Assembly: GCF_010993965.1 (NCBI RefSeq)
Contig: NZ_WIXM01000003.1
Coordinates: 124,001 to 188,000, forward strand
Length of the DNA: 64,000 bases
Reading direction: 5' to 3'
Source of the DNA: Gracilibacillus sp. YIM 98692
GTDB lineage: Bacteria > Bacillota > Bacilli > Bacillales > Amphibacillaceae
The translations under genes were made by a program, and so were the position numbers. The stretch's first letter is position 1. Each line of letters opens with the position of its first letter. Shown here one piece after another: positions 4,337 through 47,830 of this stretch. The notes under the pieces are model-generated. The model saw only the letters and a list, made by a program, of their open reading frames with translations. It did no database searches and was not told where the DNA came from.

Positions 4337-5524
4337 ATGTCTCAAGAAAATAAAAATCCAAAAATAGATTATTCGCTAATTTTCATCATTATTTTATTAG
4401 CGATATTAAGTGTGTTTACTTTATATACATTAGACCCATATTTAAAGCAAAAATATGCACAAACCTTTTATATAAATCAAATCACCTGGTTTATAGCTGG
4501 TTCGATTGTCATTGGTATCGTTATGTTGTTTGATTATGAACGTTTGCGCCAAGTGTCTTGGCTTTTTTATAGCTTAGGCCTGCTTTCATTAATTATGCTT
4601 TACTTTCATTTCCCTCCTGGGATAGCCAAAGAAGTAAATGGTGCTTGGGGTTGGTTTCAATTCCCAGTACTTGGAACCATGCAGCCTGCAGAATTTATGA
4701 AAGTTTTCTTAATTATTTTCTTGGCTCATATCATGGTCGTTCATAATGAAAAATACCCTGCCCATACGGTAAAAATGGATTTATGGCTGTTGTGCAAAAT
4801 AGGTATAACAGCTATTGTCCCCATCTACTTTTTAGCAAAGCAACCAGATATGGGAGGGGTTTTAGTATTTATTGCGATTACAGCAACTATGATTCTCGTA
4901 TCAGGAATAAAATGGCGTATTATTTTAACTGTTGTTGCAGCTGGAATTTTCACAGCCATTTGTATCATTGTTATTTACTTGGCATTTCCTGATCAAATGG
5001 AAACCTTCCTAGAAAATACCGGGTTACACCATGTGGAAGGTAGATTTCAAGGGTGGTTGTCTCCAGAAGAATATAGTCAAAGTGGTGCATACCAAGTTAT
5101 ACGTGCAATGAGAGCCATAGGTTCAGGGCAATTATCCGGTAAAGGGATTGGTATTTTTGAAGTAGCACCAGGGATTCCTGAATATCATACCGATATGATT
5201 TTCACTGCTGTTGCAGAGCAATTTGGTTTTATAGGCTCCAGTATTGTTATCACTATTTACTTTTTACTCATTTACCGTCTTATTTTTATCGCATTGAAAT
5301 CAAAAGATCCATTTGGAAGCTATATGATTACTGGAATTATAGGAATGTTCACTTTCCAAGTATTTCAAAACATTGGAATGTCCATAAAACTCCTTCCTAT
5401 TACTGGTTTACCTCTACCATTTATCAGCTATGGAGGTAGCTCGACATTAACTTATATGCTGGCTATTGGTATCGTTTTGAATGTTTATTATCGTATAAAA
5501 ACCTATATGTTTGACGAATCCTAG
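4337..5524 (+). CDS. rodA: RodA/FtsW-family (SEDS) peptidoglycan polymerase
   Basis: A polytopic SEDS glycosyltransferase that polymerises glycan strands from lipid II. It has about ten hydrophobic segments, the catalytic-Asp motif KQPDMGG, and the C-terminal signature LLPITGLPLPFISYGGSS. The preceding NIGMSIK makes it more RodA-like than FtsW- or SpoVE-like, so the symbol is a best guess. I chose ATG 4337 (395 aa). An in-frame ATG at 4277 lies inside the probable promoter (TATACT at 4290-4295), whereas 4337 follows a gagagg SD. It is transcribed toward prpE with 29 bases between them. Confidence 0.88.
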   Translation: MSQENKNPKIDYSLIFIIILLAILSVFTLYTLDPYLKQKYAQTFYINQITWFIAGSIVIGIVMLFDYERLRQVSWLFYSLGLLSLIMLYFHFPPGIAKEVNGAWGWFQFPVLGTMQPAEFMKVFLIIFLAHIMVVHNEKYPAHTVKMDLWLLCKIGITAIVPIYFLAKQPDMGGVLVFIAITATMILVSGIKWRIILTVVAAGIFTAICIIVIYLAFPDQMETFLENTGLHHVEGRFQGWLSPEEYSQSGAYQVIRAMRAIGSGQLSGKGIGIFEVAPGIPEYHTDMIFTAVAEQFGFIGSSIVITIYFLLIYRLIFIALKSKDPFGSYMITGIIGMFTFQVFQNIGMSIKLLPITGLPLPFISYGGSSTLTYMLAIGIVLNVYYRIKTYMFDES

Positions 5525-5553
5525 GAATAACCTTATGAGTGAGGAGTTTCATG

Positions 5554-6297
5554 ATGAGAGTAGATATAATAGGTGATATTCATGGTTGTTATGATGAATT
5601 ACTCGAATTAATCAAGAAGTTGGGGTATGAAATAAAAGGAGATAATATCACTCACCCTGATCAACGAAAGCTTGCATTTGTTGGAGATTTAACAGACAGA
5701 GGCCCAAACTCTATTGCTGTCATTCGACTTGTATACCAAATCGTCATTCAACAACAAAATGGCTTTTATGTCCCTGGGAACCACTGTAATAAGCTCTATC
5801 GATATTTCCTGGGAAATAATGTTCAGGTAACTCATGGCCTTGAAACAACAGTTGCAGAATATAAGCAATTACCTGATTCAGAACAAGAAGAAATTAAAGG
5901 TAAAATGATAGCATTATATGAAAAGTCCCCATTATATATAAAACTGCCAGAGGCAGAGGTTGTCATCGCTCATGCTGGTATTCGTGAAAAAGATATCGGT
6001 AAAGTAAATAAACAAGTTAAAACCTTTGTGTTATACGGGGACATCACGGGTGAAAAGCACCCTGATGGAAGACCTATTCGCCGTGACTGGGCTCAACATT
6101 ATCATGGAGATCACTGGATTGTTTATGGCCATACCCCTGTAACAAAAGCCCGATTTGTTCATAAGACCGTCAATATCGATACAGGTTGTGTTTTTGGTAA
6201 CAAGTTATCAGCCTTTCGTTTGCCTGAAGAAACAATTGTAGATGTTGAGTCCCGACAACCTTTTGTAGAAGAGAAATTTAACAGGGATATAAAATAA
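5554..6297 (+). CDS. prpE: Bis(5'-nucleosyl)-tetraphosphatase PrpE
   Basis: A calcineurin-like metallophosphoesterase that hydrolyses diadenosine tetraphosphate; the B. subtilis homologue also affects germination. All metal-site motifs are visible: DIHG, GDLTDRG, GNH, AHAG and GHTP. The length of 247 residues is typical. Three starts are possible (GTG 5539, ATG 5551, ATG 5554). GAGGAG at 5541-5546 gives the best spacing (7 bases) to ATG 5554 and yields [11 protein letters not shown], close to the family N-terminus. A bidirectional terminator follows at once. Confidence 0.93.
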
Positions 6298-6324
6298 GCC
6301 GTCCATAATGGGCGGCTTATTTTC
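6291..6324. terminator. Bidirectional terminator between prpE and yjbO
   Basis: AAAATAAGCC pairs with GGCTTATTTT, extended inward by further pairs, and has A/T runs on both sides. It overlaps the prpE stop codon and serves the convergent genes prpE and yjbO. Confidence 0.85.
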
Positions 6325-6351
6325 TGGTCTCTATAATATTCTTCTACATAT

Positions 6352-7254
6352 TTAACCCTTATTCTGAAAATTCTTTGGTCTTGCAACTAACGGTTCCATA
6401 TCCTCTGGTAATGGGACGGAAAAATGCATCCGATCTTTTTTAATGGGATGATAAAAAGATATACTTTCACAATGTAATGCCTGACGATTAATTTGCGTTC
6501 TATCCCCTTTATATAATTTATCTCCAAGTAGTGGATGACCAAGATGAGTAAAATGAACACGTATTTGATGAGTTCTTCCTGTTTCTAAGCTAATAGACAA
6601 TAAAGAATAATCCTCCCATTCACTGATGACCTCGTAGTTAGTTATCGCTTCTTGCCCATTTGGATCTATTTTTCTCTCTAAAATCGAATCAGGATGCCTC
6701 CCAATCGGAAGTTGAATCGAACCTTTTTTCTTTTGCAAATGACCTGAGACTAACGCCCGATATGTACGATTCACTACTCCAGATTTTTGATCTTTCATTA
6801 AAATAGAATGACTATAGCGATGTTTAGCAATTAAAAGCAACCCTGAAGTATCACGATCCAATCTTGTCACGACATGTACCGTATAGGGCAATCCTTGTTG
6901 ATTATAATGATAAATAATTCCATTTGCTAATGTATTTTTTAAATGATGGAAAGATGGGATAGTTGCCATATAAGCTGCTTTATTTAATACTAAGATATCA
7001 CTATCTTCATAAACAATATTTAATGGAATATATTTTGGTGTGACAAGTTCACTTCGTTTTTCTGGCGGAAATATAACCTCAACCAAGTCTTTTTCTTTTA
7101 ACACATATCTCACGTTTACTTCTATTCCATTGACTAATATTTCCCCGCCGTCATATTTTACGGCATTTAGCGTTCTTCTTGACATCCCTTTTACTTTTGA
7201 AAGGTAATCCCTAAGCAGAAGTTGTTCATGTTGTTTATCTACTTGCCATTTCAA
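6352..7254 (-). CDS. yjbO: RluA-family 23S/tRNA pseudouridine synthase (YjbO)
   Basis: Isomerises uridine to pseudouridine in structured RNA; the exact target is unknown. An N-terminal S4-like RNA-binding segment (about 10-75, LRDYLSKVKGMSRRTLNAV) precedes the catalytic domain with motif RLDRDTSGLLL, which carries the catalytic Asp, and the RTHQIRVH motif. The 300-residue length fits the RluA/RluD class. The SD is weak (ggtga, 12 bases away). It lies 23 bases behind nadF in the relQ-nadF-yjbO operon, the same order as in B. subtilis. Confidence 0.92.
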   Translation of the reverse strand: MKWQVDKQHEQLLLRDYLSKVKGMSRRTLNAVKYDGGEILVNGIEVNVRYVLKEKDLVEVIFPPEKRSELVTPKYIPLNIVYEDSDILVLNKAAYMATIPSFHHLKNTLANGIIYHYNQQGLPYTVHVVTRLDRDTSGLLLIAKHRYSHSILMKDQKSGVVNRTYRALVSGHLQKKKGSIQLPIGRHPDSILERKIDPNGQEAITNYEVISEWEDYSLLSISLETGRTHQIRVHFTHLGHPLLGDKLYKGDRTQINRQALHCESISFYHPIKKDRMHFSVPLPEDMEPLVARPKNFQNKG

Positions 7255-40149: not shown

Positions 40150-40998
40150 TCAATCATCTCTGCGGAAAAATCCATAGACACCTGCTGTTTGAACTACATT
40201 GGTAAAGGCATTTTCATCGACTTCATGAATAATTCTTTCTAAGTCATATAGTTCATACCTTGTGATGACCAGATAAAGCATATGCTTATCTTCTTTTGTG
40301 TAGGCCCCTTTTACTGGGAGAATTGTCATCCCACGAGTCATCGTATCATGAATCGCTTTTTGTAATTCATCCGTTTTCTTTGTCACGATCATGGCGGTTA
40401 CTTTTTCATGACGTGTATGTATGCTGTCAATAATTCTTGTTGTCACATATAAACCTACTAATGTGTACAGGGCATTTTCTGGTTCATTTAACAAACCTGC
40501 GATCACGATAATCATCCCGTTTATCACCATTAAATAACCGCCAATTGGCTTGTCTTTCATTCGTGAAATCCACATTGCGATAATATCAGAACCACCAGTT
40601 GATGCCCCCCATTTCAAGGTGATCCCAACACCAAAACCTGCGATCACACCGCCAAATACCGCATTTAACATTAAATCATCCGACAGGCTGAGGGTTGGCA
40701 GTATTTCCAATGCACCTGATGTAAAGATAACAGATAAAAAACTATATATTGTAAATCCTTTTCCTACTTTAATCCATCCAAGTATAGCAACAGGAATATT
40801 TAATAGAAATAAGATAATACCAGTACTTATATTTTCCATATGAAAGTAATCCGTGAATATTGTAGAAAGGATTTGTGAAATACCTGTAAATCCACTGGCA
40901 TAAACGTTCGCTGCTATGAGAAAAAAATTCAGAGCTATCGCATTTAAGATCGCTCCAATAATAACGATAGCAATTCTTTGTGCCTGCATTAAAAACAA
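40150..40998 (-). CDS. YitT-family membrane protein (DUF161/DUF2179)
   Basis: Membrane protein with about five or six hydrophobic segments (NFFLIAANVYASGFTGISQI, WGASTGGSDIIAMWISR) followed by a cytoplasmic DUF2179 domain ending GVYGFFRRDD. This is the YitT/YqfU/YpjC architecture; function unknown. Three starts are possible. GGAGGG best serves TTG 40998 (spacing 6) over ATG 40989 (15) or ATG 41022, whose frame would translate the SD. Confidence 0.82.
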   Translation of the reverse strand: MFLMQAQRIAIVIIGAILNAIALNFFLIAANVYASGFTGISQILSTIFTDYFHMENISTGIILFLLNIPVAILGWIKVGKGFTIYSFLSVIFTSGALEILPTLSLSDDLMLNAVFGGVIAGFGVGITLKWGASTGGSDIIAMWISRMKDKPIGGYLMVINGMIIVIAGLLNEPENALYTLVGLYVTTRIIDSIHTRHEKVTAMIVTKKTDELQKAIHDTMTRGMTILPVKGAYTKEDKHMLYLVITRYELYDLERIIHEVDENAFTNVVQTAGVYGFFRRDD

Positions 40999-41198
40999 GA
41001 TTATCCCTCCAATTATAACCATCTCTTTATTCTAAATAGGCCACGATATCCTTTACCCTTTGATTGGTTCATTTAACCATATTGAAGAGCAAATTAAGCT
41101 CATTTATTTTGACGAATAGACCGGTTATGCTTACACTTATATTAAACTGAAATAACGATTACATACATGTTGTCTAGTATGTAAAAGGAGGATGTCGA

Positions 41199-42062
41199 TT
41201 GCAGATCCAAATTATGACCGATAGCGCTTGTGATTTATCAAAAGAAGATTATCAAAAGTACCAAATTGAAATGGTTCCATTAACGGTTCAATTAGAAGGA
41301 AAAAATTATGAGGATCAATTATCGATTTCGTCAAAGCAAGTATATGATTCGATGCGTGAAGGAAAAGCCCCAAAAACAGCACAAGTAAGTCCCCAAGTTT
41401 TTAAGGATGCTTTTGAAAAACATGCCAGAGAAGGAAGTGCAGTCATTTATTTATCCCTATCTTCTGAGCTTTCTGGAACATATCAAGCTGCTAAATTGAT
41501 GGAACAAGAAGTAAAAGAAAATTTCCCTGACTTCAAGATAGAAGTCATTGATACGAAATGTGCTTCTCTTGGGTTGGGGTTAGTCGTATTAAAGGCAGCA
41601 GAACTAGCACAAAATAACACAAAATTTGAAGAAATCGTCTCTACCAGTAAATATTATTTGGAGCATATGGAACACATTTTTACGGTGGACGATCTCGAAT
41701 ATTTATATCGAGGCGGCCGTGTAAGTAAAACAGCTGCTTTTGTTGGAACATTATTAAAAGTGAAGCCTTTATTACACATGGAAGATGGCAAACTGATTCC
41801 ACTTGAAAAAATACGTGGAACGAAAAAAGTCTATAAACGAATGCTCGAGGTTATGGATGAGCGAGGAATGGATTTAAAACATCAAACGATTGCCATAAGC
41901 CATGGTGATGCGAGTGATACTGCAGAACATTTGGCTAATATGATACGGGAAAAATGGGATGTAAAAGAGATTAAAATAAATATGATAGGATCTGCCATTG
42001 GGGCACATGCAGGACCAGGGACGATAGCATTATTCTTTTCAAATCAATCACCAAACGAATAA
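41199..42062 (+). CDS. DegV-family fatty-acid-binding protein
   Basis: Cytoplasmic DegV protein, 287 residues; family members bind fatty acids and in several Firmicutes present them to FakA kinase for phosphorylation. The N-terminal TDSACDLSKED, fatty-acid-site SLSSELSGTYQAA, CASLGLG and the C-terminal IGAHAGPGTIALFF are characteristic. TTG start at 41199 with AGGAGG 7 bases upstream. No FakA-type kinase gene lies nearby. Followed by a strong terminator. Confidence 0.93.
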   Translation: MQIQIMTDSACDLSKEDYQKYQIEMVPLTVQLEGKNYEDQLSISSKQVYDSMREGKAPKTAQVSPQVFKDAFEKHAREGSAVIYLSLSSELSGTYQAAKLMEQEVKENFPDFKIEVIDTKCASLGLGLVVLKAAELAQNNTKFEEIVSTSKYYLEHMEHIFTVDDLEYLYRGGRVSKTAAFVGTLLKVKPLLHMEDGKLIPLEKIRGTKKVYKRMLEVMDERGMDLKHQTIAISHGDASDTAEHLANMIREKWDVKEIKINMIGSAIGAHAGPGTIALFFSNQSPNE

Positions 42063-42318: not shown

Positions 42319-43179
42319 ATGTCATCCAATCAACAGAAAGAAATTTTACCCAAACAACATCAAGACAGGCAGCCTGGCTTTGAACACAACATGCAGCCAT
42401 TACCAAAGACGATAAATCGCCATTATCAAGGCAGCCAAAAGCTTGCGCAAAAGAGTGCGATTATTACAGGTGGTGACAGTGGCATCGGTCGTTCTGTAGC
42501 AGTACATTTTGCTAAAGAAGGAGCAAATATCGCCATTGTTTATTATGATGAAGATCAAGATGCCAATGATACAAAAAAGATGGTGGAACAAGAGGGGGTA
42601 CAATGCAGTCTTTTTAGAGGAGATATAGCGAAAAGTAACTTTTGCTCGGATGTGGTAGAGAAAGTGTATCAAGAATTTGGCAAAATAGATATTTTAGTCA
42701 ATAATGCCGCGATGCAATTCCCGCAACAAGATTTCACTAAAATTACCGATGAACAGTTAGAGCGAACATTTCGAGTTAATATTTTCTCCTACTTTTATTT
42801 TTCAAGAGCGGTTCTGCCATACCTGAAACAAGGCAGCTCAATTATTAATACTTCTTCCATTACTGCTTTTAAAGGAAACAAAAAATTAATTGATTATTCG
42901 AGCACGAAAGGAGCCATTACGACGTTTACGAAATCACTAGCTCAATCTGTTGCATCACAAGGAATTCGAGTAAATAGTGTCGCACCTGGTCCCATTTGGA
43001 CTCCTCTTATTCCAGCATCTTTTGATGAGAACGAGGTAGCAAAGTTTGGTTCAGATACTGAAATGGCACGACCTGGGGAACCATGTGAGGTCGCACCGGC
43101 CTATGTTTATTTAGCTAGCGAAGATGCTAGCTACATCACAGGTCAAACCATTCACATAAATGGCGGCACTCCGATCTAA
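42319..43179 (+). CDS. SDR-family oxidoreductase (general stress/glucose dehydrogenase-like)
   Basis: Short-chain dehydrogenase, 286 residues. A 45-residue N-terminal extension (KQHQDRQPGFEHNMQPLP) is characteristic of the Gsp39/YhdF subgroup. Cofactor site TGGDSGIGR, NNAAM, and catalytic Ser-Tyr-Lys in NTSSIT...YSSTKGA are present, with the C-terminal GQTIHINGG. ATG 42319 has AAGGAG 8 bases upstream; the GTG at 42310 lies in the SD region. Substrate unknown; I saw no clear sigma-B promoter. Confidence 0.9.
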   Translation: MSSNQQKEILPKQHQDRQPGFEHNMQPLPKTINRHYQGSQKLAQKSAIITGGDSGIGRSVAVHFAKEGANIAIVYYDEDQDANDTKKMVEQEGVQCSLFRGDIAKSNFCSDVVEKVYQEFGKIDILVNNAAMQFPQQDFTKITDEQLERTFRVNIFSYFYFSRAVLPYLKQGSSIINTSSITAFKGNKKLIDYSSTKGAITTFTKSLAQSVASQGIRVNSVAPGPIWTPLIPASFDENEVAKFGSDTEMARPGEPCEVAPAYVYLASEDASYITGQTIHINGGTPI

Positions 43180-43207
43180 CCTCTAGGTATAAATTTTAAA
43201 TAAAGAA

Positions 43208-43300
43208 AAAAGGAGCTGTTTAAATAGACAACTCCTCTGTACACGCAACTGGAATATATTCGCTTTTCCCACAGGAGTCTCATATATTCCAGTTGCTGAA
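43208..43300. repeat. Family D element with two hairpins
   Basis: AGGAG-TGTT...GACA-CTCCT forms the first hairpin, probably the SDR terminator. The second has perfect 15-bp arms GCAACTGGAATATAT (43245-43259) and ATATATTCCAGTTGC (43282-43296) enclosing a CCCACAGGAGTC block also seen in family C. Related to 33030-33290. Confidence 0.65.
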
Positions 43301-43318
43301 TTAATCATTCATACCTAC

Positions 43319-44770
43319 CTATGAAATGACCTTATTCTTATTTTTAACACTGACGGTGATGACAAATCCGACAAATGCTCCGACGATAGCTAACATGGCT
43401 ATGATAAAAAACCAATTAAATCCTGTATCTTCTTCTAATATAAAAACATTAGCTGTTTCACGGTCTAACACAATATAATAGTTCCCATCATCTTGTTGTC
43501 TTACAATACCATCTTCTAATAAACCGCGAAGTTGCATCCCATCATCCATATTGGCTATTTCTACCGTTTTTGTTTCTGTATCATTGTTGATCGCCATATA
43601 CATAGTCTGATCGGCAGAAGTCCTTTTATAGACAGACATCGCTCCCGCTTGGTTTACGAGTTCTATATCTCCTTCTCGTAATGCCGGTGCATCTTCTCTC
43701 AGTGTACTTAATTTATCTAAGTATCTTGTAATATCTTCATCTGTCCGATTAACTTCTGCCATTCGATGATCAGGTTCTGCTGCCCCATTGTCCATCGGCA
43801 CTTCAGAACCTTGATATATCAGACTATCGCCTGGAATGGTATATAAAAATGTAAGGGCTAATTTCCACCTAGTAACAGGGTTGAATCCTTCCCGAACTGC
43901 TTCATGCGTAAACCGATTCGTTGCCGCATTATCGATAAACTGTATTTGGTTGCCTTGTAAAAGTTGTTCTTCAGTCAAAATAGATTCTAATGATTCCCCT
44001 GGATGCTTCAATACATTCACTAATTTTTCTTGTAACCGATGATTCACTTGAAGATAATTTGCATCATTAGCGTAACTCTTTCCATCTGTCAGGAGAAGTG
44101 CTTGCTCGTTCACTTCCTCAATCCTCTCTTGGAAAGCTTGAATAAATGATTCAGGTGTATTCTCATTCACATATAAATGAAAACCATCAATTTCCACTTC
44201 TTCTATCCAATAGGCAGCACTATTTAAGAAATAGTTTTCCACATCATCTATTTGTAAATCAGGGATCAAAACCTCTGTACCCCATTGATGATTCTCTTTG
44301 TTCGCTGTCCACTTGCCATTTAGTTCTGATAAAGGATGATCGGCATTTACTTGAGAGACAACAAAATCCAAGATAACTTTCATATCATGTTCATGCGCCG
44401 TTTCTACCATTTGTTTTAAATCTTCCATTTCACCAAAGTGAGGATCTAGTGATTGGTGGTCCAATGGATCTAACCCATGGTAACTGCTTGATTCCATTAC
44501 TGGACTAACATTAATCGCAGTAAAACCTAAATCTGCTAATTCAGGAATATGATCGATTATTCCTTCTAAATCACCACCATGATAAGCTGTTTTTTGATCA
44601 ATATTAATGTCCATATCATTGTCGCTGTTGCCATTAATGAACCGATCTACCAATATATAATACATCCGCTCATCTGTCTTTTGATTAGCTTCGACCTTCC
44701 CTCCAAAAACAGTACCAATCATAATGATGAGAAACCCGACTAATAGAATTTGTCTAATATATTTATACAT
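43319..44770 (-). CDS. Membrane-anchored GH13 alpha-amylase homologue lacking catalytic residues
   Basis: A 483-residue exported protein: signal peptide (about 1-28), GH13 barrel (about 35-370), a beta domain, and a C-terminal membrane helix (FIIAMLAIVGAFVGFVITV) with a basic tail. The fold is clear (YYILVDRFINGNSDND, YHGGDLEGI, MKVILDFV), but the active site is lost. Region II reads GFHLYVNEN, with Tyr200 where the nucleophile Asp should be. The acid/base Glu position is Asp229 (LLTDGKS). Region IV FIDNAATNRF has Ala282-Ala283 in place of His-Asp. It probably binds glycan or acts as a scaffold rather than hydrolysing starch. SD aagggga. Confidence 0.88.
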   Translation of the reverse strand: MYKYIRQILLVGFLIIMIGTVFGGKVEANQKTDERMYYILVDRFINGNSDNDMDINIDQKTAYHGGDLEGIIDHIPELADLGFTAINVSPVMESSSYHGLDPLDHQSLDPHFGEMEDLKQMVETAHEHDMKVILDFVVSQVNADHPLSELNGKWTANKENHQWGTEVLIPDLQIDDVENYFLNSAAYWIEEVEIDGFHLYVNENTPESFIQAFQERIEEVNEQALLLTDGKSYANDANYLQVNHRLQEKLVNVLKHPGESLESILTEEQLLQGNQIQFIDNAATNRFTHEAVREGFNPVTRWKLALTFLYTIPGDSLIYQGSEVPMDNGAAEPDHRMAEVNRTDEDITRYLDKLSTLREDAPALREGDIELVNQAGAMSVYKRTSADQTMYMAINNDTETKTVEIANMDDGMQLRGLLEDGIVRQQDDGNYYIVLDRETANVFILEEDTGFNWFFIIAMLAIVGAFVGFVITVSVKNKNKVIS

Positions 44771-44833
44771 GTACTATCCCCTTCTTCATATAATCTTTCT
44801 TTTTCTATTATGATGAACTTTAACAAGTTGTCA

Positions 44834-44966
44834 AATAAAGAAAACTCGGCGATTGCCGAGCCTTTGGCGACAGCAGAGCCGTAGTTGCGCTTATCTATAT
44901 ACTTCAAATTGGCCGCCTCGTCGAATTACTTCCTTGCTGACCATTTATACTTTCAGATACGGTAAT
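44834..44966 (-). repeat. Family A interspersed repeat (copy A3)
   Basis: Best-preserved copy on the minus strand: AAATGGTCAGCAAGGAAGTA, GATAAGCGCAACTAC, then CTCGGC-aatc-GCCGAG and TTTTCTTTA. It lies directly after the terminator of the 149-aa gene and upstream of the amylase-like gene. Confidence 0.78.
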
Positions 44967-45004
44967 AAAAAGACTACACTTTTTTTGACAAAGTGTAGTC
45001 CTTT
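44967..45004. terminator. Terminator of the 149-aa gene
   Basis: GACTACACTTT pairs with AAAGTGTAGTC around a short loop, with T-rich ends, immediately after the minus-strand stop. Confidence 0.88.
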
Positions 45005-45005
45005 A

Positions 45006-45455
45006 TTACTTTGATATTTGATTTAAATATTTTGTCTTCATTCTTTCTCTTATAAAATAAATCATACTAATCACAATAAAAAAGAGGATGGGAACAGTAT
45101 ATTGAAAAACGTTCATCCAATGGAAAGGTGCTTCGTGTTGATAGATTGCTTTTACGTATACATTACCTTCTTCTACCGCAATAGCTTCACTAACCGGAAT
45201 ATCGCTTATCGAAAAATATTTTGTATCAATCGGGTACTTATTTGAAGCATTTCCATAATACTCCCCTGTTCTATCAGGCTTAGAGGTAACCCGGCCAATA
45301 TTCTCTTCCACCTGAACTATCGGAACCTGTTCCTCTGTCACTTGATACACCTTTCCATCATAGACCACAAACGGATAAGCCCAACTTAACCCCAAGACAA
45401 CCGTTAAAGGACTAAACATACAGACAAGTAGTAAGCTAACGAAAAATTTTTTCAT
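45006..45455 (-). CDS. Putative membrane protein, unknown function
   Basis: 149 residues: N-terminal hydrophobic helix (FFVSLLLVCMFSPLTVVLGL), an extracytoplasmic domain of about 85 residues with YDGKVYQVTEEQV, IGRVTSKPDRTGEYYGNASN and SEAIAVEEGNVYVKA, and a second membrane helix (about 117-137) followed by a basic end. I do not recognise a named family. The repeated beta-strand pattern suggests a small extracellular beta domain. It lies between asnO and the amylase-like gene on the same strand; the SD is weak. Confidence 0.7.
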   Translation of the reverse strand: MKKFFVSLLLVCMFSPLTVVLGLSWAYPFVVYDGKVYQVTEEQVPIVQVEENIGRVTSKPDRTGEYYGNASNKYPIDTKYFSISDIPVSEAIAVEEGNVYVKAIYQHEAPFHWMNVFQYTVPILFFIVISMIYFIRERMKTKYLNQISK

Positions 45456-45500: not shown

Positions 45501-47351
45501 CTAGGACGTTTCAATCGTTACATCATACATTCTTAACCAATAATCAATTTGAGCTAGATGTGCCATTAATTGCGGCCCTGTCATTAATTGGCCAAACCAT
45601 GGAGCATCTATATTGGATGCTTTATGATTGACTAATTCTTGCACCGCTTTTTTATCCAATACTTCAAATAACCGGGCATCCTTATCCTGTAAAATCTCAT
45701 CCATCCATTTAACAACTGCTTTCGTATAAGCTGGGTGATGTGTTTTCGGATAAGGGCTTTTCTTACGATATAAAATCTCATCAGGAAGCAATCCCTCTAA
45801 AGCTTTTCGTAAAATTCCCTTTTCTCGATTTCCTATTGTTTTTATTTCCCATGGAATATTCCAAACATATTCCACCAAGTGATGATCACTAAACGGCACA
45901 CGCGCCTCGAAACTCGCCCCCATACTCATTCGATCCTTACGATCAAGTAATGTTGGCATAAACCAATGCATATTTAAATAAAACATCTGACGTCTACTCC
46001 GTTGCTCTGCATCTTCCCCATCTAATAAGGGGGTCTCTCGAATCGTATCCTCGTATTTCGTTAGAGCGTATTCCTTCAGACTTAGCTTTGATTGCAGTTT
46101 TTTTGTTAATAACTGCTGTCTCACTTCAGAAGATCGAATCCAAGGAAAACCTTCTCTTTCTAAATCATCCTTACGATAAAACCATGGATAACCACCGAAT
46201 ATTTCATCTGCACATTCTCCAGATAAAGCAACGGTGACATGTTTTTTCGTTTGTTCACAAAACCACAATAGTGATGAATCCACATCTGCCATTCCTGGCA
46301 AGTCACGGTATCTTACCGCATCTTTTAATAAACCAGCTAATGTGTGATTATCCATCTCAAAAGAATGGTGACGGGTTCCGCAAGCATTTACCATCTTTTC
46401 AATAAATGATTTATCTTGATTTGGTTGAAAACTGCTTTTTTGAAAATATTGGTCATTTCCTTGATAATCAATGGAAAAAGTTTGTAAAGTACCTGAATTA
46501 TGACGCTTCATATATTGACTAGCAATCGCGGTAATCGCACTTGAATCCACTCCACCAGACAAAAAAGTGCCTAACGGAACATCTGAAACGAGTTGCCGTT
46601 CCACGGCATCTGTTAATAACTCTCTGATATGTTGTGCTGTCTCTTCAACAGAGTCTTCATGCTTCTCACTTTGGACATTCCAGTACCGTCTTGTTTTCCA
46701 GCCATCTTTTGAAAAAATTCCGACATGTGCTGCTCGTAATTCTTCCATTTGCTTAAAAACACCAAATCCTGGTGTTCTTGATGGGCCAACTGCAAAGATT
46801 TCCGATAAGCCTTCTTCTGTTAAGACAGCTCTCACTTCGCTATGTGCTAAAATTGCTTTGATTTCGGAAGCAAATAAAAGACCATTTCGATGCTGCATGA
46901 AAAAGAGCGGTTTTACCCCTAAACGATCCCTCGCTACAAAAAGCTGTTCTTTTGCTTCATCCCATATCGCATAAGCAAAGATGCCATTTAATTTTTCAAC
47001 ATGAGATTCGCCCCATTCCATATAGCTTTTTAATAATACTTCTGTATCAGAGTGTGATTGAAATTTCCAGCCTCTTTTAACTAACTCACGTCTTATTTCT
47101 TCAGTATTATATAATTCTCCATTATAAACGAGTACATATTTTTGTTTCGACGTTCGTGCTTCCATTGGCTGCTTCCCGCCATCAGGATCCACTACAATCA
47201 GACGCTGATGCCCAAAACCAACATGTTGATCCAGCCAATAACCAGATTCGTCAGGGCCACGGTGTTCTAGGGTATTCGCCATTTGAGTGATATTTTGCTT
47301 TTCATTCGTTATATCACGAGTAAAATCTACCCATCCTGAGATGCCACACAT
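45501..47351 (-). CDS. asnO: Asparagine synthetase (glutamine-hydrolysing), AsnO type
   Basis: Converts aspartate, glutamine and ATP to asparagine. The N-terminal Cys2 nucleophile of the class II glutaminase domain is MCGISGW, with the RLIVVD and NGELYN motifs. The synthetase domain carries the ATP-pyrophosphatase loop FLSGGVDSSAI and SGECADEIFGGYPW. 616 residues, matching the B. subtilis sporulation-linked AsnO (about 614), which also neighbours yisL. SD gaggatac. Which of the three Bacillus paralogues it is rests on size and neighbourhood. Confidence 0.9.
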   Translation of the reverse strand: MCGISGWVDFTRDITNEKQNITQMANTLEHRGPDESGYWLDQHVGFGHQRLIVVDPDGGKQPMEARTSKQKYVLVYNGELYNTEEIRRELVKRGWKFQSHSDTEVLLKSYMEWGESHVEKLNGIFAYAIWDEAKEQLFVARDRLGVKPLFFMQHRNGLLFASEIKAILAHSEVRAVLTEEGLSEIFAVGPSRTPGFGVFKQMEELRAAHVGIFSKDGWKTRRYWNVQSEKHEDSVEETAQHIRELLTDAVERQLVSDVPLGTFLSGGVDSSAITAIASQYMKRHNSGTLQTFSIDYQGNDQYFQKSSFQPNQDKSFIEKMVNACGTRHHSFEMDNHTLAGLLKDAVRYRDLPGMADVDSSLLWFCEQTKKHVTVALSGECADEIFGGYPWFYRKDDLEREGFPWIRSSEVRQQLLTKKLQSKLSLKEYALTKYEDTIRETPLLDGEDAEQRSRRQMFYLNMHWFMPTLLDRKDRMSMGASFEARVPFSDHHLVEYVWNIPWEIKTIGNREKGILRKALEGLLPDEILYRKKSPYPKTHHPAYTKAVVKWMDEILQDKDARLFEVLDKKAVQELVNHKASNIDAPWFGQLMTGPQLMAHLAQIDYWLRMYDVTIETS

Positions 47352-47476: not shown

Positions 47477-47830
47477 TTACATAGGTAATCGAAAAAATCC
47501 GAGAACTAATGCAATAATGAGAGCTATAATCAGTTGAGCCCATACACCTTTTGCAGGTTTGCCTTTGGAAGTTTTCACTAATACCAATTCCATTCCTGCA
47601 ATAACCCATAAACCTGCTAATCCTTTTACAATCAACTCACCTAAGAAAGGAAAACCGCCACTGGCATATTCTGCAAACAGATCTCCGCCAGAGTAAAGAA
47701 TCAGCAAATAATCTAAGCGCAAAATCATATGTAGAATCTTGCCAGCTTTATGACCTTGTTTATAAAAGATAAACGATATCAACAATAAAATTAAACCTAA
47801 CACCCATGCGGTAATATGCAAATGTGTCAT
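47477..47830 (-). CDS. yisL: YisL-family membrane protein (UPF0344)
   Basis: A 117-residue protein with four hydrophobic helices; the HLHITAWVLGLILLLISF start and the HMILRLDYLLILYSGG segment are typical of the YisL/UPF0344 family (DUF1516). A Gly/Lys loop (VKTSKGKPAKG) lies before the last helix. Function unknown. Strong AAGGGGGG SD. Next to asnO as in B. subtilis. Confidence 0.92.
   Translation of the reverse strand: MTHLHITAWVLGLILLLISFIFYKQGHKAGKILHMILRLDYLLILYSGGDLFAEYASGGFPFLGELIVKGLAGLWVIAGMELVLVKTSKGKPAKGVWAQLIIALIIALVLGFFRLPM

Follow-up and report, generated by a model that had tools for sequence, protein, structure and literature searches.

A membrane-anchored GH13_45-derived protein of Gracilibacillus and its family without the alpha-amylase catalytic residues: a putative pseudoenzyme

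Introduction

The GH13_45 alpha-amylases such as ASKA possess a signal peptide and a C-terminal transmembrane region, and maltose is contacted in ASKA by Y100, W101, Y143, R211, D213, E242, H309, D310, and R362, with H217 located at subsite +1 (PMC4791539). BmaN1, described by Sarian et al. (2017) as a GH13_45 protein with an aberrant catalytic triad, is proposed to use as replacements Glu231, His294, and the Asp that directly follows the nucleophile position (PMC5347038). It is reported to hydrolyse soluble starch with a kcat of 256 per s and to be inhibited by acarbose (PMC11448133). The BmaN1 paper lists seven sequences (Nos 28–34) in which the whole triad is substituted "without an obvious regularity" and treats the aberrant-triad GH13_45 proteins as putative alpha-amylases (PMC5347038); such proteins are also counted within GH13_45 in a 2024 paper on GH13 subfamilies (PMC11239784). 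The same 2024 paper exempts rBAT and 4F2hc from the triad criterion as non-enzymatic GH13 members (PMC11239784), and the roles of these two proteins lie mainly in transporter stability and trafficking (PMC8537225).

The gene considered here lies in a 64,000-nucleotide stretch of Gracilibacillus sp. YIM 98692 (assembly GCF_010993965.1, contig NZ_WIXM01000003.1, positions 124,001 to 188,000), hereafter called the window. Its product has in common with the GH13_45 amylases (ASKA/TASKA, 5a2a–c; GTA, 4e2o; BaqA) the fold, the domain A and domain C matches, the signal peptide, and the C-terminal transmembrane region, but differs from them in lacking the Asp-Glu-Asp triad, all ten mapped maltose contacts, and the WW pair, with a gap in the W166 column. 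Like rBAT and 4F2hc, the heavy subunits of animal amino-acid transporters, it carries a GH13-type ectodomain on a single membrane helix and keeps this anchor while the catalytic residues are gone; in rBAT and 4F2hc, however, the helix precedes the ectodomain and the light-subunit partner is known, and the likeness is drawn at the level of GH13. The plant isoamylase ISA2 is likewise related to GH13, lacks the catalytic residues, and has been retained as a partner subunit, although it is intracellular and its partner is an active paralogue.

With the BmaN1 group, the window copy shares the subfamily neighbourhood, the replaced catalytic positions, and the C-terminal transmembrane helix, but BmaN1 keeps the Glu and has Lys-Asp and His, whereas Tyr200-Val201, Asp229, and Ala283 stand in the window copy. 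The combination of Lys-Asp, a retained Glu, and a His stabiliser that marks the BmaN1 group is absent from the window copy, which may instead belong to the type of sequences Nos 28–34 (PMC5347038). Among the titles and abstract openings retrieved from an open-access library, none concerned this protein as a GH13 pseudoenzyme or an inactive membrane-anchored amylase, and the consulted parts of the GH13_45 literature do not present the dead type as an old, selected, family-wide orthologue that evolved repeatedly with shifted constraint.

The gene and its product

The gene (43319..44770, reverse strand) is an unbroken frame with an ATG start and a ribosome-binding-like GAAGGGG upstream, and its 483-aa product matches the Pfam families Alpha-amylase (E 1.8e-32, 113.6 bits) and Alpha-amylase_C_2 (E 4.6e-23). 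The closest solved structures by phmmer are the Anoxybacillus and Geobacillus alpha-amylases 5a2b, 5a2a, and 4e2o (E 6e-80 to 3e-74). An AlphaFold model built from a 48-row alignment (pLDDT 88.9, pTM 0.84) retrieves 5a2a, 5a2c, and 4e2o as top structures with Foldseek and VIA-align (TM 0.78–0.80; VIA-align Z 46–47, rmsd 2.0 Å over 408–416 residues), the best superposition being that on 5a2a (Z 47.0, rmsd 2.0 Å over 416 residues). The sequence and fold of the catalytic domain together with domain C (Pfam, PDB matches, model) place the protein in GH13, the Asp-Glu-Asp triad on strands 4, 5, and 7 is missing, and both the best PDB matches and a tree with live rows including 5a2b group it with the BaqA/ASKA type. 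A sequence-only reading of the locus had described a GH13 scaffold with a signal peptide, a C-terminal anchor, and an intact frame behind a clean Shine-Dalgarno site, and each of these features was recovered: the scaffold by Pfam, the PDB matches, and the model aligned on 5a2a, the N-terminal hydrophobic segment and the anchor by hydropathy and model, and the frame with its GAAGGGG by the open reading frame itself.

The signal segment (residues 1–28; 44687..44770, reverse strand) is putative, being based on hydropathy with no cleavage site predicted, and corresponds to a helix at residues 2–21 in the model. Domain C (PF22026, residues 367–443; 43442..43672, reverse strand), whose relative conservation is higher in dead than in live proteins, is followed by the C-terminal membrane helix (residues 453–475; 43346..43414, reverse strand) and a basic tail, the helix as a whole spanning residues 453–482 by hydropathy and model. 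Throughout, live (intact) and dead refer to the catalytic residues as read from sequence. Hydropathy finds the C-terminal transmembrane segment in 118/118 dead rows of the family, 36/36 other dead rows, and 42/44 live rows, the two exceptions being shortened sequences. Immediately before the membrane, the juxtamembrane motif GxNW (residues 450–453; 43412..43423, reverse strand) occurs in all 118 dead rows of the family, in 15/36 other dead rows (all from family f7), and in 6/44 live rows. At least five aromatic residues, counted irrespective of motif positions, are present in the last 45 residues of 115 of the 118 family dead rows, so that the five C-terminal aromatics typical of GH13_45 are retained together with the transmembrane segment. 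The tryptophan pair of GH13_45 is replaced by YW in the window copy and survives in only 3/118 family dead rows vs. 33/44 live rows. The region V motif LPDlx is held by 2/118 family dead and 43/44 live rows, with an ambiguous local alignment (residues 167–172) in which the IPDLQ of the window copy (residues 169–173) can pair with the LPDl of live enzymes.

The gene is apparently transcribed alone, since a promoter-like TTGACA-16-CATAAT (44807..44834, reverse strand; 11 of 12 consensus positions) precedes it and terminator-like hairpins lie on both sides, one between the upstream gene and the pseudoenzyme gene (44841..44864, reverse strand) and one downstream of it (43209..43238, reverse strand), all of these being consensus matches only. 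The scan of 43100–45100 returned 12 promoter-like sites vs. 8.3 in shuffled sequence and three terminator-like hairpins vs. 0.8. Catabolite-responsive cre sites with at most one mismatch were found upstream of 6/115 family loci and of 4/115 shuffled controls.

Catalytic residues and the substrate pocket

Catalytic positions were assigned from a 199-row multiple alignment, which confirms every substitution named in the sequence-only reading. The nucleophile Asp is replaced by Tyr200 (44171..44173, reverse strand), a Tyr being found in 15/15 rows of the own genus and in 26/118 family rows, where His is more frequent (75/118); the Arg of GxRxD is replaced by His198 (44177..44179, reverse strand), which is likewise present in 15/15 own-genus rows. 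Asp229 (44084..44086, reverse strand) stands at the position of the acid/base Glu, as does an Asp in 89/118 family rows and 13/15 own-genus rows. Lys231 was considered for this position on the basis of a pairwise phmmer alignment with a two-residue gap and was rejected, the multiple alignment placing Asp229 there. The His-Asp pair with the transition-state stabiliser is replaced by Ala282-Ala283 (43922..43927, reverse strand), and the stabiliser position is scattered within the family (Y34, F16, S13, N10, and others, in 120 rows). In region I, Ser139-Gln140 (44351..44356, reverse strand) takes the place of Asn-His. Outside the catalytic positions, Ser89 (44504..44506, reverse strand) corresponds to a residue that is Thr in 42 of the 43 live rows having a residue there, and Ser is found in 118/118 family rows, 15/15 f7 rows, 2/2 f2 rows, and 12/19 remaining dead rows; this Thr → Ser change in the region VI strand of several dead lineages is possibly convergent.

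The pocket has been emptied as well. When the nine maltose contacts of ASKA and H217 were mapped by alignment, 0 of the 10 positions were kept in the window copy, a mean of 0.1 in the 15 own-genus rows, and a mean of 1.8 (maximum 5) in the 118 family dead rows, compared with 9.6 in the 44 live rows. No residue aligns with W166 (+2 subsite, domain B) in 118/118 family dead rows, nor in 11/44 live rows. His98 is kept in 117/118 family rows. Judged by these residues, the widespread family copy is predicted to be unable to act as an alpha-amylase by the known GH13 mechanism.

Distribution in the family and age of the loss

An orthologue is present in 17/17 genomes of the own genus and in 132/159 genomes and 36/46 genera of the own family (141 places in total, the window copy included), leaving 27 of the 159 genomes without the gene, and in all 132 genomes that have it the orthologous copy lacks the full Asp/Glu/Asp triad. 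Among the 118 full family rows, comprising 117 loci and the window copy, none of the three acids remains in 110, one remains in eight (L128; L051, L063, L065, and L067; L117, L119, and L158), and two remain in none; in the 15 genomes beyond this set, the copy of G100 has the Glu. Broken copies are few: the sole copy of G001 (L263) is split between two frames and that of G008 is in fragments, both being left out of the 118 rows though read for their residues, a second copy in G150 (L280) is frame-split, and the copy of G004 has a stop near its C-terminal end. A second copy with the full triad (E ≤ 1e-50) occurs in 6/132 genomes (G028, G094, G096, G097, G098, and G103), and those of G028, G096, and G098 branch outside the dead clade.

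A tree of 122 rows was built with the motif columns left out and two distant Paenibacillus loci as outgroup, after removal from the tree and later counts of L226, a different GH13 protein with a longer frame. In this tree the 40 family rows, every one of them dead, group in a single clade (SH-aLRT 100) nested among live rows including 5a2b. Since the full triad is absent from every orthologous copy in 132 genomes, the loss of catalysis appears to be old, and a triad loss common to 132/132 family genomes is, as judged from the residues, more than chance.

Homologues and losses outside the family

Within the order, a match at E ≤ 1e-60 is found in 291/397 sampled genomes and 93/135 genera, the own family included, a cut-off that at its weak end admits other GH13 proteins such as a 581-aa frame of the own genome. 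Outside the family, 76 homologues comprise 40 intact and 36 dead copies, which were picked unevenly and give no estimate of frequency. The full triad is present in 33 of the 40 top-listed non-family matches (one or few per family, the remainder of the homologues being f7 or weaker matches), and dead copies are found also in families f2, f7, f21, f22, f23, f31, f33, f40, f41, f44, and f47. The intact/dead label requires seven changes on the 122-row tree, at least four of which are forced by well-supported branches; these changes are read as repeated losses, and their number is unsure because deep placements rest on long branches.

L248 (f44) has the Lys-Asp/Glu/His pattern reported for BmaN1. 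L182 (genome G204, f47) is partly converted, with the nucleophile Asp changed to His and the Glu and His-Asp kept, possibly an early stage of loss. One genus of f7 (g94) contains a live copy (L166 in G246) as well as dead ones (L205, L206, and L210 in G532, G274, and G209).

Genomic context and origin

Across the own family, the pseudoenzyme gene lies mostly in one neighbourhood, yisL ... degV-yitT. On one flank in the window are a gene for a small DUF1516 protein (47477..47830, reverse strand), which we take to be yisL of B. subtilis and which is a neighbour in 100/117 family loci, and a gene presumably of the asnB/asnO type, named from its sequence (45501..47351, reverse strand; 31/117). The other flank holds a gene assumed to be of the degV type (41199..42062, forward strand; 78/117) and one for what is presumably a yitT-like membrane protein (40150..41022, reverse strand; 65/117). 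Three of the 117 loci have none of yisL, degV, yitT, SDR, and asnB, and another GH13 gene lies near the dead copy in one. At 45006–45455 (reverse strand) lies a gene for a 149-aa protein that is hydrophobic at both ends and could not be confidently assigned to a family, with homologues near the pseudoenzyme gene in 11/117 loci.

In the window, asnB and one more gene separate yisL from the pseudoenzyme gene, and yisL lies directly upstream on the same strand in 52/117 loci. An operon with yisL was considered and set aside, since the gap is never below 60 bp (median 168) and the two genes are not evidently co-transcribed. yisL is present in 131/132 genomes with the pseudoenzyme gene vs. 20/27 without it (Fisher p 1.4e-5, kinship ignored), a co-occurrence that may stem from deletion of both genes with one segment. 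In B. subtilis, a transcriptome table lists yisL as a hypothetical protein (PMC3514339). As a marker of sporulation, a SpoIVA match (E ≤ 0.001) is found in 130/132 genomes with the pseudoenzyme gene and 25/27 without it (p 0.13), those of G115 and G116 being weak; this comparison is uninformative as to a link with sporulation.

Outside the family the setting is different. Among 40 non-family loci taken from the top matches listed (~11 kb each), another GH13 gene is present in 31 and degV in 19, and a frequent order is a GH13 gene on the other strand, frames of ~430, ~430, and ~280 aa, the amylase, and a frame of ~345 aa. In L164, L181, L183, and L202, the 430/430/280-aa frames presumably represent MalE, MalF, and MalG and the 345-aa frame a LacI regulator. 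L202 (G256, f23; 5003–6545) has a dead triad and is still located beside the MalEFG-like genes. Immediately after it comes the gene of another GH13 enzyme, as though this neighbour had taken over from the dead copy. Live orphans without MalEFG in ~11 kb occur in the yisL/asnB-degV neighbourhood in L166 (f7), where a LacI-type gene is still adjacent, and in L189 (f26). As these live orphans occupy the same site, the likely course would be from operon enzyme to orphan enzyme to pseudoenzyme in place, with the order of steps a matter of inference.

A continuing link to maltodextrin uptake was rejected in view of the distribution of MalG, a match to which (E ≤ 1e-60) is found in 88/132 genomes with the pseudoenzyme gene and 22/27 without it (Fisher p 0.17), and of the presence of two MalG-type genes elsewhere in the own genome; by the same evidence, the pseudoenzyme gene is decoupled from this uptake.

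Selection and shift of constraint

The comparison of dN/dS between related dead copies, which the sequence-only reading had suggested as a check, indicates purifying selection. Among 59 pairs at ≥72% identity, five of them without a finite dS, NG86 dN/dS was 0.05–0.20 in 52 dead pairs and 0.06–0.07 in two live pairs, many pairs having dS > 1, where the estimate is poor, and all pairs being drawn from copies other than that of the window, whose nearest relative is 54–56% identical. Degeneration is disfavoured by these values and by the antiquity of the loss.

The distribution of constraint along the protein was compared by the ratios of pocket, domain C, and juxtamembrane plus transmembrane identity to overall identity, calculated over pairs that are not independent, with 40 of the 118 family dead rows sampled, the live set taken without 5a2b, L251, and L243, and the other dead set without f22, f23, and f47. 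At an overall identity of 0.45–0.60, the three ratios (pocket, domain C, and juxtamembrane plus transmembrane) were 1.25, 0.66, and 0.43 in live proteins (531 pairs), compared with 0.85, 1.08, and 0.94 in the family dead (352 pairs), 0.71, 1.15, and 1.01 in the own genus (62 pairs), 0.66, 1.11, and 1.38 in the f7 dead (69 pairs), and 0.85, 1.11, and 1.09 in the other dead (22 pairs). At 0.30–0.45, where there are no live pairs, the corresponding values were 0.73, 1.26, and 1.07 in the family dead (381 pairs), 0.66, 1.24, and 1.01 in the own genus (eight pairs), 0.66, 1.19, and 1.32 in the f7 dead (23 pairs), and 0.92, 1.07, and 0.85 in the other dead (109 pairs), the last group showing a weaker shift. 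Estimated from these identities, relative constraint in several dead groups is lower in the pocket than in live proteins and higher in domain C, the juxtamembrane motif, and the membrane helix, and the conservation of domain C and the anchor could partly reflect needs of folding or export. At the level of single residues, Q320, M92, M326, and W453 show little or no variation within the family and are already common in the nearest live relatives, so that only Ser89 and Asn341 look newly fixed.

Discussion

The proposal of a surface pseudoenzyme that is not decaying, made in the sequence-only reading, gains support from the family-wide orthologues, the purifying selection between related dead copies, the retained anchor, and the shifted constraint. 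With moderate confidence, the protein is interpreted as a membrane-anchored GH13 pseudoenzyme, a non-enzymatic ectodomain with the role of a scaffold or partner subunit, which most likely descended in place from an operon amylase. The ancestor would have been an extracellular GH13_45 alpha-amylase anchored in the membrane and encoded in a maltodextrin operon. This operon would have disappeared from around the amylase gene, which stayed at its site, and catalysis would have been abolished in the common ancestor of the entire family as well as, independently, in further lineages of the order, although the sequence of these events may have differed. The protein would then have been retained for a non-enzymatic task in which it makes no productive contact with alpha-glucan, its outward-facing ectodomain holding, shielding, or positioning a membrane partner. 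By analogy with rBAT/4F2hc and their transporters, domain C and the membrane-proximal segment might contact the partner, for which YisL, the DUF1516 protein encoded nearby, is no more than a candidate. The scaffold or partner-subunit reading is the simplest because selection keeps the anchor, domain C, and the membrane-proximal segment and lets the cleft go; a receptor that binds alpha-glucan through the old pocket and a regulator of a close active paralogue, both suggested in the sequence-only reading, are less likely.

The glycan receptor of that reading is weakened by the present results. A non-catalytic receptor whose ectodomain binds starch, teichoic acid, or another wall polymer in order to sense or tether would be in keeping with a fold that is that of carbohydrate-binding enzymes and with some conserved pocket residues (His98 in 117/118 family rows, His at the nucleophile position in 75/118, and Asp at the acid/base position in 89/118). 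We nevertheless regard it as unlikely, given that maltose contacts number 0/10 in the window copy and 1.8 on average in the family vs. 9.6 in live rows, that the W166 column is empty in all family dead rows (as it also is in 11/44 live rows), that conservation in the dead proteins is weaker in the pocket than elsewhere, and that 44 family genomes have the gene and no MalG match at E ≤ 1e-60; a different glycan or a different binding surface may still be involved. The substituted residues could alternatively support a re-tooled enzyme, with BmaN1-like or new chemistry through Tyr200, His198, and Asp229 or the His/Asp pair frequent in the family. BmaN1, for which activity is reported although Lys/Asp/Glu/His replace the triad, speaks for this and against the pseudoenzyme reading, the dead state of the present copies being deduced from residues (PMC5347038, PMC11448133), and the constancy of Tyr200 (15/15), His198 (15/15), and Asp229 (13/15) in the own genus points the same way. 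Such an enzyme is nonetheless quite improbable, as the BmaN1 replacements are absent, with Val201, Asp229, and Ala283 in their places, the stabiliser position varies widely among family members, and relative pocket constraint is low.

Regulation of an active GH13 paralogue would require a partner enzyme, and the own genome does encode several other GH13 proteins, including a 2139-aa frame. That frame (C1, 461.8–465.8 kb; L018, L021) has GH13 matches in two places and is perhaps a large secreted amylopullulanase. No close active paralogue is present in the own genome, where the next match of the family profile is the 581-aa GH13 frame (E 1.1e-63 vs. 3.1e-205 for the gene itself), and a second copy with the full triad is limited to 6/132 family genomes, which makes a regulatory partner very unlikely and leaves the corresponding suggestion of the sequence-only reading unsupported for a close paralogue; a wider version, with one of the more distant GH13 enzymes as the partner, is conceivable. 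The least credible explanation is that of a functionless relict of the lost maltodextrin operon in the course of decay. The operon genes were not found at the site in the 117 family loci, frames are split in the sole copy of G001 and a second copy of G150, and 27/159 genomes have no gene; against this, the loss is old, yet the frame (apart from the exceptions named above), the signal segment, and the anchor have been kept, dN/dS between dead copies is 0.05–0.20, and GxNW is present in 118/118 rows. Orthologues with the canonical triad, which the sequence-only reading had held to be a sign of a merely degenerating copy, do exist in other families, but degeneration fits neither the selection on the dead copies nor the age of the loss.

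Beyond the partner-subunit interpretation of this one protein, a wider and more tentative idea, which we consider possible but doubtful, is that bacteria have on several occasions converted a surface alpha-amylase, after loss of the maltodextrin operon, into a membrane subunit without enzymatic activity, as a prokaryotic counterpart of rBAT/4F2hc. Domain C and the membrane-proximal segment would bind the partner, which might be YisL or some other envelope protein, and the same shift of constraint would have followed more than one of several separate losses of catalysis.

GH13_45 pseudoenzymes resemble alpha-amylases in family searches, and the family-wide dead type is relevant to reports of activity in aberrant-triad members of GH13_45 such as BmaN1. 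One chromosomal site provides a traceable series of operon enzyme, orphan enzyme, and pseudoenzyme, and the occurrence of live and dead copies in a single genus (g94 of f7) makes the change from enzyme to non-enzyme open to direct test.
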